33,978 bases of DNA, taken from the NCBI GenBank assembly GCA_035517655.1, contig DATIYJ010000007.1, positions 1 through 33,978 of the forward strand. The letters run 5' to 3'. The notes below the pieces were generated by a model. It saw nothing but the letters and a program-made list of their open reading frames with translations, did not search any database and was not told where the DNA came from. Origin of the DNA: Nitrospiria bacterium (GTDB lineage: Bacteria > Nitrospirota > Nitrospiria > JACQBZ01). The translations under genes were made by a program, and so were the position numbers. Shown here one piece after another: positions 31,568-33,846 of the stretch (position 1 is the stretch's first letter; every line of letters starts with the position of its first letter).

Positions 31568-31595
31568 CAGTGGTTTGGTACAGGTATGTATGATT

Positions 31596-31623
31596 GTAGG
31601 GGCGACCGCTTGGTCGCCCCTAC
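31596..31623 (+). repeat. Perfect 28-base hairpin palindrome between the pilin genes
   Basis: GTAGGGGCGACC (31596-31607), loop GCTT, GGTCGCCCCTAC (31612-31623): a perfect 12-bp stem. Only CGTTCATATTT follows, so it is not a classical terminator. It resembles the GTAGGGGCG-type extragenic palindromes dispersed in many genomes. It could protect the 3' end of the first pilin messenger. Confidence 0.75.
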
Positions 31624-31652
31624 GTTCATATTTCGATGGGGAGGATAATGCG

Positions 31653-33154: not shown

Positions 33155-33227
33155 GCCACCGTAACTCAGTCGGTAGAGTAGCTGATTTGTAATCAGCCTG
33201 TCGGGGGTTCAATTCCCTCCGGTGGCT
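33155..33227 (+). tRNA. tRNA-Thr(TGT)
   Basis: A full cloverleaf: acceptor GCCACCG/CGGTGGC, D-stem ACTC/GAGT, anticodon stem GCTGA/TCAGC with loop TTTGTAA (anticodon TGT), T-loop TTCAATT and discriminator T. The CCA end is not encoded (CCG follows). It is first in the conserved Thr-Tyr-Gly-Thr-tuf block. Confidence 0.96.
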
Positions 33228-33229
33228 CC

Positions 33230-33257
33230 GACAATTTTCCGAAGGAAAAGAATTGTC
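33230..33257 (+). other. Hairpin immediately after tRNA-Thr(TGT)
   Basis: GACAATT (33230-33236) pairs with AATTGTC (33251-33257), with an inner TTCC/GGAA stem (33237-33240 with 33244-33247) and an AAG bulge. It is probably a processing or partial-termination element in the tRNA transcript. Confidence 0.55.
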
Positions 33258-33321
33258 CCCCATTTACTATTTGCGATTTACAGTTTTGTCGATAGCGGTA
33301 AATGGTGAATGGTAAATGGGG
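33258..33321 (+). repeat. Heptad-periodic inverted repeat between tRNA-Thr and tRNA-Tyr
   Basis: The left arm contains CATTTAC, TATTTGC and GATTTAC (33261-33281). The right arm contains GGTAAAT, GGTGAAT and GGTAAAT (33297-33317). The outer ends CCCCATTTAC (33258-33267) and GTAAATGGGG (33312-33321) are exact reverse complements. The arms are therefore short 7-base tandem repeats in inverted orientation around a loop of about 15 bases. Confidence 0.65.
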
Positions 33322-33328
33322 AAGTGTA

Positions 33329-33410
33329 GGGGAGGTACCCAAGCGGACAACGGGAACAGACTGTAAATCTGTCGCCATCGGCTTCGGAGGTTCGAATCCT
33401 CCCCTCCCCA
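33329..33410 (+). tRNA. tRNA-Tyr(GTA)
   Basis: A class II tRNA with long variable arm, 82 bases. Acceptor GGGGAGG/CCTCCCC is perfect, anticodon stem ACAGA/TCTGT with loop CTGTAAA (anticodon GTA), T-stem GGAGG/CCTCC with TTCGAAT, discriminator A. CCA is not encoded. Confidence 0.96.
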
Positions 33411-33437
33411 GTTTTGGTCCGCTGGGCGAACCAAAAC
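33411..33437 (+). other. Hairpin immediately after tRNA-Tyr
   Basis: GTTTTGGT (33411-33418) pairs with ACCAAAAC (33430-33437), with an inner CGC/GCG pair set. It starts at the base after the tRNA discriminator. No T-run follows, so it is more likely a processing element than a terminator. Confidence 0.6.
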
Positions 33438-33442
33438 AGAGG

Positions 33443-33502
33443 ATGGAGAATAGAAAATAGAGAATGGGAACAGAGGCCGGTCCAATTTCTATTTTCCATT
33501 TT
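33443..33502 (+). repeat. Second heptad-periodic inverted repeat, between tRNA-Tyr and tRNA-Gly
   Basis: The left arm reads in 7-base steps GGATGGA, GAATAGA, AAATAGA, GAATGGG (33441-33468). The right arm is CCAATTT, CTATTTT, CCATTTT (33482-33502). ATGGAGAATAGAAA on the left is nearly the reverse complement of the right arm. The construction is like that of the repeat at 33258-33321. Confidence 0.55.
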
Positions 33503-33509
33503 CCGGGTT

Positions 33510-33581
33510 GCGGGAATAGCTCAGCGGTAGAGCGCCAGCCTTCCAAGCTGGGGGTCGCGGGTTCAAATCCCGTTTCCCGCT
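33510..33581 (+). tRNA. tRNA-Gly(TCC)
   Basis: Acceptor GCGGGAA/TTCCCGC, D-stem GCTC/GAGC, anticodon stem CCAGC/GCTGG with loop CTTCCAA (anticodon TCC), T-loop TTCAAAT, discriminator T. CCA is encoded at 33582-33584. Confidence 0.96.
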
Positions 33582-33717
33582 CCAGATTGGTTGTGCGGTA
33601 GTTATCCGCTTAGACCAGCGCTAGTTGAAGAGAATTTAATCGGCGTGTCAATTTATGGTAATCAAGAAGAAGATAATCAATTGGAAGAATATATTCAATC
33701 GAAGGATAAAGCGTGTT

Positions 33718-33790
<73 letters not shown>

Positions 33791-33846
33791 CCAGGATCGC
33801 TGCATACACAACCATTATCGGGTCGTTGATTAGTTAGGGAGGTTTT

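Follow-up and report, generated by a model that had tools for sequence, protein, structure and literature searches.

What are the hairpins and periodic inverted repeats that separate successive tRNA genes of one operon in a Nitrospiria bacterium, with the same symmetry in two spacers of different sequence? The locus stands at the end of the window, the whole stretch of 33,978 nucleotides analysed here, which is the entire contig C7 (DATIYJ010000007.1) of a 2.65 Mb draft genome (GCA_035517655.1). Four tRNA genes are found there in the order Thr(tgt)-Tyr-Gly-Thr(ggt), followed downstream by what we take to be the start of tuf (Table 1). An initial annotation of this DNA had described, for both the Thr-Tyr and the Tyr-Gly spacer, a hairpin that adjoins the 3' end of the tRNA and is followed by an inverted repeat with arms of 7-base units. 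It had attributed them to a recurring process, such as repeat expansion or an RNA processing scaffold, rather than to chance.

Table 1. Features of the tRNA cluster and its spacers; positions are those of the window.
Feature	Position	Strand	Remarks
tRNA-Thr(tgt)	33155-33229	+	3' end T-CC-G, CCA incomplete
Capping hairpin a:a', touching the tRNA-Thr 3' end	33230-33257	+	one bulge
Left arm b of the heptad inverted repeat	33258-33281	+	ATTTACN units; R1 family match, 80.4 bits
Loop of the Thr-Tyr element	33282-33297	+	TTGTCG complementary to CGACAA at 33229-33234, a weak a''
Right arm b'	33298-33321	+	GGTAAAT GGTGAAT GGTAAAT, read from 33297
tRNA-Tyr(gta)	33329-33410	+	no CCA encoded; ends in discriminator A, hairpin right after
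Capping hairpin touching the tRNA-Tyr 3' end	33411-33437	+	compensatory differences relative to G012
Left arm of the second heptad inverted repeat	33445-33467	+	GGAGAAT AGAAAAT AGAGAAT
Right arm of the second heptad inverted repeat	33482-33504	+	shuffle-tested inverted repeat
tRNA-Gly(tcc)	33510-33584	+	CCA encoded; no element behind
tRNA-Thr(ggt)	33718-33793	+	tRNA call

The description holds for both spacers, each 99 bases long. Their inverted repeats beat all 500 dinucleotide shuffles, the best lag among lags 4 to 12 is 7 in each (reached by 2/500 shuffles for Thr-Tyr and 0/500 for Tyr-Gly), and the RNA folding z-scores are -8.0 and -4.3, respectively. The heptads GGTAAAT and GGTGAAT given for the first spacer were recovered, and the units of the second read GGAGAAT, AGAAAAT and AGAGAAT. 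The Gly-Thr spacer, from which such features had been said to be missing, has neither hairpin nor inverted repeat: 487 of 500 shuffles score equally or better and its folding z-score is -1.1. A chance origin of the spacer features is ruled out by the shuffles together with the copies at other loci presented below. At gathering score, tRNA is the sole Rfam match in the window and in eight loci carrying the element. The window contains a third strong inverted repeat at 31589-31630 (score 14).

A dispersed element of about 100 bases accounts for the Thr-Tyr spacer, which is one of its copies. In this element a capping hairpin at the mature tRNA end precedes a long imperfect stem of degenerate units. 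The heptad search of the own genome proposed in the initial annotation, run with a degenerate pattern and at most one mismatch, gave 11 matches, four of them in the window, against one for the reversed pattern, and the surroundings of these matches share the plan a-a'-b-a''-b'. In this heptad family the capping hairpin is composed of AAAATTTTCC, a short loop and GGAAAATTTT. The repeated unit is ATTTAC plus one variable base, so that the left arm b consists of ATTTACN and the right arm b' of NGTAAAT units, and a'', located in the loop, is the complement of a and its loop. A covariance model built from 13 copies, R1, detects the family in four of seven genomes of the bacterial family (the own genome, one of its two congeneric relatives and two of the three from a different genus) and finds nothing in G002, G003 and G004 at E≤0.01; in a search of 196 genomes of the class at E≤1e-4, matches are confined to those four and two marginal cases. 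The copies have a mean identity of 71% when aligned and are found at many loci with one covariance model, and are therefore homologous. Since the Thr-Tyr spacer copies a dispersed element, simple local expansion is not its main story; the arms may still owe their first origin to repeat expansion.

Thirty-nine heptad places were tabulated, of which 38, including a weak one at E=0.003, come from R1 and the last is a short form picked up by the pattern, leaving aside reverse-strand matches of the same places and a partial match at a contig end (G001 C65:2-55). Fifteen are in sense orientation and start no more than 2 bases away from a tRNA 3' end, and a further one touches tRNA-Asn with its own hairpin. 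Another abuts tRNA-Ala(tgc) at the 5' end, three come after what appears by eye to be a copied tRNA 3' end, and two lie about 90 bases behind tRNA-Leu(gag). The copy of G001 C64, 2 bases upstream of tRNA-Glu, is an exception to polarity in that its far end, not its hairpin, is turned toward the tRNA. At the remaining 16 places, one of which begins at a contig end, the fetched stretch showed no tRNA; a role in tRNA processing thus cannot by itself account for the existence of the heptad copies. Many of these 16 share a GC-rich context; such copies distant from tRNAs (L207, L218, L222 and several G001 loci) are often inside a GC-rich repeated context like gcgagcgagagggggaggct. tRNA-like inserts of about 90 bases were also seen behind Pro(ggg), Ser(gct) and Gly(gcc), ending, by eye, in a copy of that tRNA's 3' end (G000:C15, L199 ~1383-1500; G000:C43, L212; G001:C6, L051 ~1600-1700).

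A second family, unrelated in sequence, has an equal architecture with period 8 and is present in all seven genomes of the family. Its capping hairpins are of the type AATTTTTGC/GCAAAAATT and its arms are built of GAGCATTG-like octads. The model R2, derived from an alignment of 20 sequences (A2), was searched in 116 genomes of the class at E≤0.001; it hits the seven family genomes plus G012, the other 108 giving no match. The family has 44 primary places: 25 at a tRNA 3' end, eight at a 5' end and 11 unassigned, some of these last in G003 and G004, where tRNA coordinates were lacking. The eight 5'-end places are all at tRNA-Ser, exactly 2 bases away and pointing outward, with the hairpin next to the tRNA. 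Two octad elements stand in tandem behind tRNA-Glu(ctc) in G002 (C38:10844-11067). Neither R1 nor R2 matched the window's Tyr-Gly element in these searches; G012 shares this element, with 83 of 99 positions identical and with compensatory changes between the two hairpins.

Being stable and following genes on the sense strand, the hairpins could be ordinary transcription terminators or attenuators. However, no T run follows either hairpin or stem in the window, where CCCC and AGAGG come after the two capping hairpins in place of the tract of a Rho-independent terminator. Both elements are located between tRNAs of one cluster, and the eight octad copies at tRNA-Ser are upstream of the gene; we hold this explanation to be highly improbable.

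Elements of this design are precisely anchored at many tRNA 3' ends and, chiefly in the case of tRNA-Ser, at 5' ends too, the hairpin being on the tRNA side. The 3' flanks were counted in 152 distinct cases representing part of the tRNAs of six genomes (G000 37, G001 37, G002 26, G005 27, G006 21 and G003 4). With a rule that demands an abutting hairpin together with a significant inverted repeat or, alternatively, strong periodicity at lag 7 or 8, an element is called in 33 of the 152 listed flanks, and hairpin plus inverted repeat under neutral scoring also gives 33, the copies being related and these counts hence not independent. Roughly one in five of the family's sampled tRNA genes has a hairpin exactly at the mature 3' end. 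The 32 flanks picked by hairpin and inverted repeat alone have their best lag at 7 in 18 cases, at 8 in 13 and at 5 in one, versus a best lag of 7 or 8 in 20 of the 103 flanks with neither feature (Fisher p=6e-16). One of the 33, Met(cat) of G005 with best lag 5, is probably a false hit. The rule missed elements recognised by eye or by R1/R2 in G001 (Ser(gga), Val(tac), Ser(tga) and Pro(tgg)) as well as the Thr element of the window, whose hairpin is bulged. Some flanks entered through R1 finds: Leu(cag) of G005 and G006, which are counted, and Leu(gag) of G000, G001 and G006, which are not. The mirror count at 5' ends gives 8/156, in a set that includes loci taken because R2 matched there; seven are tRNA-Ser, and the best lag is 8 in seven and 7 in one.

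Control flanks behaved differently under the neutral rule. None of 66 flanks from 18 genomes of other families, all of a single tRNA operon, qualified (Fisher p=2e-6), and one of 46 did in an unrelated Pyrinomonadaceae genome (best lag 10; Fisher p=1e-3) that has heptad inverted repeats elsewhere. G012 gave 1/27 with 200 shuffles and 2/27 with 60. The recurrent process postulated from the window is supported by the presence of one architecture behind many tRNAs at period 7 or 8. The opposite case considered in the initial annotation, a sequence with no similar elements elsewhere and invariant spacers in all relatives, does not fit: similar elements were found elsewhere, and the corresponding spacers of G003, of the same family, measure 40 and 67 bases and have no element by the rule. 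This operon was not found assembled in two relatives of the same genus. Most sampled tRNAs (119/152) have no element, which is thus not required, and for several tRNAs some relatives carry none. Contigs C20, C44, C49, C55, C62 and C64 of G000 have an end at or close to a tRNA gene, and assembly breaks may therefore conceal some elements. The 3' CCA is missing from 44 of the 152 sampled tRNA genes, namely 17/33 with an element versus 27/119 without (Fisher p=0.002); the difference is not significant once stratified by anticodon (p=0.21), and loss of CCA through element insertion is suggestive only.

On alignment A1, pairing holds in 95.6% of pair cells and 0/500 shuffles attained the covariation score, the structure having been derived from the same alignment on which covariation was scored. 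In 29 of the 39 heptad copies, a'' matches the complement of its own a and loop over 9.7 bases on average, compared with 6.7 when copies are exchanged (0/5000 permutations); the ten copies without a clean hairpin, left out of this test, include that of the window. This complementarity implies that a can pair with a' or with a'', and the latter pairing would form a pseudoknot. The long stem of the heptad family has a mismatch about every seventh base: the seventh base forms Watson-Crick pairs in 33 of 73 cells, against 395 of 455 for the other six.

The pattern of mismatches bears on the possibility that such structures were born repeatedly in place, heptad slippage and template switching forming hairpins de novo in tRNA spacers with no mobile element involved. 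Template switching should produce matching arms, which is at odds with the frequent mismatch at the seventh base, and the homology of the heptad copies also argues against it. Two studies nevertheless report that many bacterial genomes have heptads in excess or as their commonest longer repeats (PMC4679880, PMC4692102), and template switching is described to yield reverse-complement copies and RNA hairpins (PMC8794818). By eye, a'' follows the local hairpin even when the hairpin sequence differs (G001 C18), and tRNA spacers of other families have periodic inverted repeats of other sequence with no capping hairpin (G012 Thr-Tyr, G019 Tyr-Gly and G049 Tyr-Gly). Heptad inverted repeats occur in other phyla, too: at least 118 loci have three GGTRAAT units, and complementary heptads are present within 150 bases at 15 of the 118 listed versus 0/118 stretches about 1 kb away. 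In view of the homology and of the mismatched arms we judge repeated local birth improbable. The GGTRAAT inverted repeats (L072-L189) are spread over several phyla and have the G-rich arm first in 14 of 15 cases, opposite to the element of the window. Heptad inverted repeats as a general feature of tRNAs were rejected, only 3 of the 118 listed loci being less than 300 bases from a tRNA.

The wobble pairs of the stems indicate on which strand structure is constrained. Under neutral arm scoring, used instead of a scoring favouring G-U that gave 58:18, the ratio of G-U to A-C on the tRNA-sense strand is 39:14 in the 33 elements at 3' ends (20:8 for period 7 and 18:4 for period 8). In the 23 heptad copies that do not directly follow a tRNA it is 15:21 (Fisher p=0.004 against the 3' set), and in the eight 5'-end elements it is 5:9 read outward, that is 9:5 in tRNA sense (p=0.012). 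These Fisher probabilities are too small, given the relatedness of the copies and the presence in all three sets of one element, that between tRNA-Ile and tRNA-Ala. The 16 tRNA-abutting R1 copies alone give 12:5, which is not significant (p=0.14). The bias tracks transcription and not the element's own strand, which we take as evidence for constraint on RNA. An advantage of the sense strand in folding exists too, more weakly, in flanks without elements. Concerning the RNA processing scaffold evoked in the initial annotation, covariation and the excess of G-U over A-C behind tRNAs thus lend indirect support to its structural part, a role of the elements as RNA.

Dispersed palindromes may also be purely selfish, like REPINs or MITEs, with transposition targeting the cloverleaf base on either strand and structure serving mobility rather than maturation. 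The copies are indeed dispersed and patchy, the heptad family not having been found in G002 of the same genus; one tRNA can have different families across species, as do Pro(tgg) and Glu(ctc), where a heptad copy in one species is replaced by an octad copy in another; and the hairpin is on the tRNA side on both flanks of tRNAs. The segments a and a'' are inverted copies of each other, although a'' does not stand at a terminus as the inverted repeats of a MITE would. The movement of REPINs, which are dispersed palindromes, is ascribed to RAYTs (PMC3116915), and the present elements resemble REP/REPIN sequences as short dispersed palindromes in genomes most of which have Y1 transposase genes (5/6 tested; the own-genome one scores 79.5 bits versus a RAYT cut-off of 80). 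They differ from those in their tRNA-end anchoring, in arms of period 7 or 8 and in the lack of any R1 or R2 element (E≤1) in the 10 Y1 loci examined, 29,523 bases, of 15 Y1 matches; mobilisation by RAYTs is therefore not supported. In addition, G005 holds copies yet gives no Y1 match, and the wobble bias varies with tRNA context. Taking both sides together, purely selfish elements are rather unlikely. The own-genome Y1 transposase near the REP-associated type is encoded on the minus strand at L402 150-818, near a contig end.

We favour the hypothesis, to which we give a probability of about one half, that the spacers are tRNA-end palindromic elements, RNA structures kept at pre-tRNA ends probably for tRNA maturation. 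Two families unrelated in sequence have one architecture, with covariation and a sense-strand wobble bias behind tRNAs. The capping hairpin would, in the pre-tRNA transcript, set the tRNA end or protect it against exonucleases, and the long stem could separate tRNAs in the operon or be cut by RNase III. The copies would reach tRNA ends by a mechanism acting on DNA and would then be kept there by selection on RNA. DNA-level spread is suggested as well by copies away from tRNAs, by a patchy distribution and by the copies that point outward from 5' ends; the 5'-end copies are oriented opposite to transcription, which a purely RNA-based origin does not predict.

The proposed role in maturation can be set against the enzymes of tRNA 3' processing. 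B. subtilis uses RNase Z to process tRNAs that lack an encoded CCA and 3' exoribonucleases for those that have it (PMC10100781). The RNase Z model TIGR02651 scored above its cut-off in none of five family genomes (G000, G001, G002, G005 and G006); four of the five have weak matches, the own genome having none at 1e-3. Those of G002 and G005 are metallo-beta-lactamase proteins far below ribonuclease Z cut-offs. The model matched all 14 control genomes, above cut-off in just 9, so absence of RNase Z is not proven. It is a quite improbable extension of our reading that mobile structure-seeking elements landing at tRNA gene ends, on either strand, were adopted as the maturation device of a family in which no canonical RNase Z was detected.

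Heptad inverted repeats are already known, and their anchoring at tRNA ends was not found reported: the open-access literature, mostly exclusive of subscription journals, yielded no report of palindromes anchored at bacterial tRNA ends. In Xanthomonas, the heptanucleotide GGGAATC forms 70 and 75 inverted pairs in two species; the study (PMC4692102) describes repeats like the present ones in their tandem 7-base units, inverted pairs and mostly intergenic location, but G-rich and studied as quadruplexes, and mentions tRNA 0 times in its main part. Adjacent inverted 7-base units, as in heptanucleotide repeats, are found in the window and in the 18 of 32 family flanks with best lag 7. The near-perfect head-to-tail copies of such repeats are not found: the units are degenerate, mostly at the seventh base, and the second family has period 8. 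The P6b stem of the Nostoc tRNA-Leu intron offers a structural parallel (PMC4476775), both of its sides being made of degenerate 7-base repeats, with two alternative repeat classes retaining a similar structure; unlike the elements described here, dispersed at many tRNA ends, P6b resides inside one intron. ERIC and BIME stem-loop families are likewise dispersed, intergenic and endowed with a common secondary structure. The survey that treats them (PMC2267715) dropped tRNA genes and tRNA-related clusters, so the present class could have been missed there. The tRNA-trailer sponge RNA 3'ETS-leuZ is a single E. coli locus (PMC8294330).

The ends of tRNA genes are tightly constrained positions. If our reading is true, this repeat class would tie dispersed palindromes, for which often no function is known, to pre-tRNA maturation, on the basis of precise occupancy on both sides of tRNAs, of the same end being turned to the tRNA and of families that substitute for each other with the same design. 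It would also give a concrete setting for why 7-base repeats abound in bacteria, the heptad stem being a succession of six paired bases and one often unpaired base.
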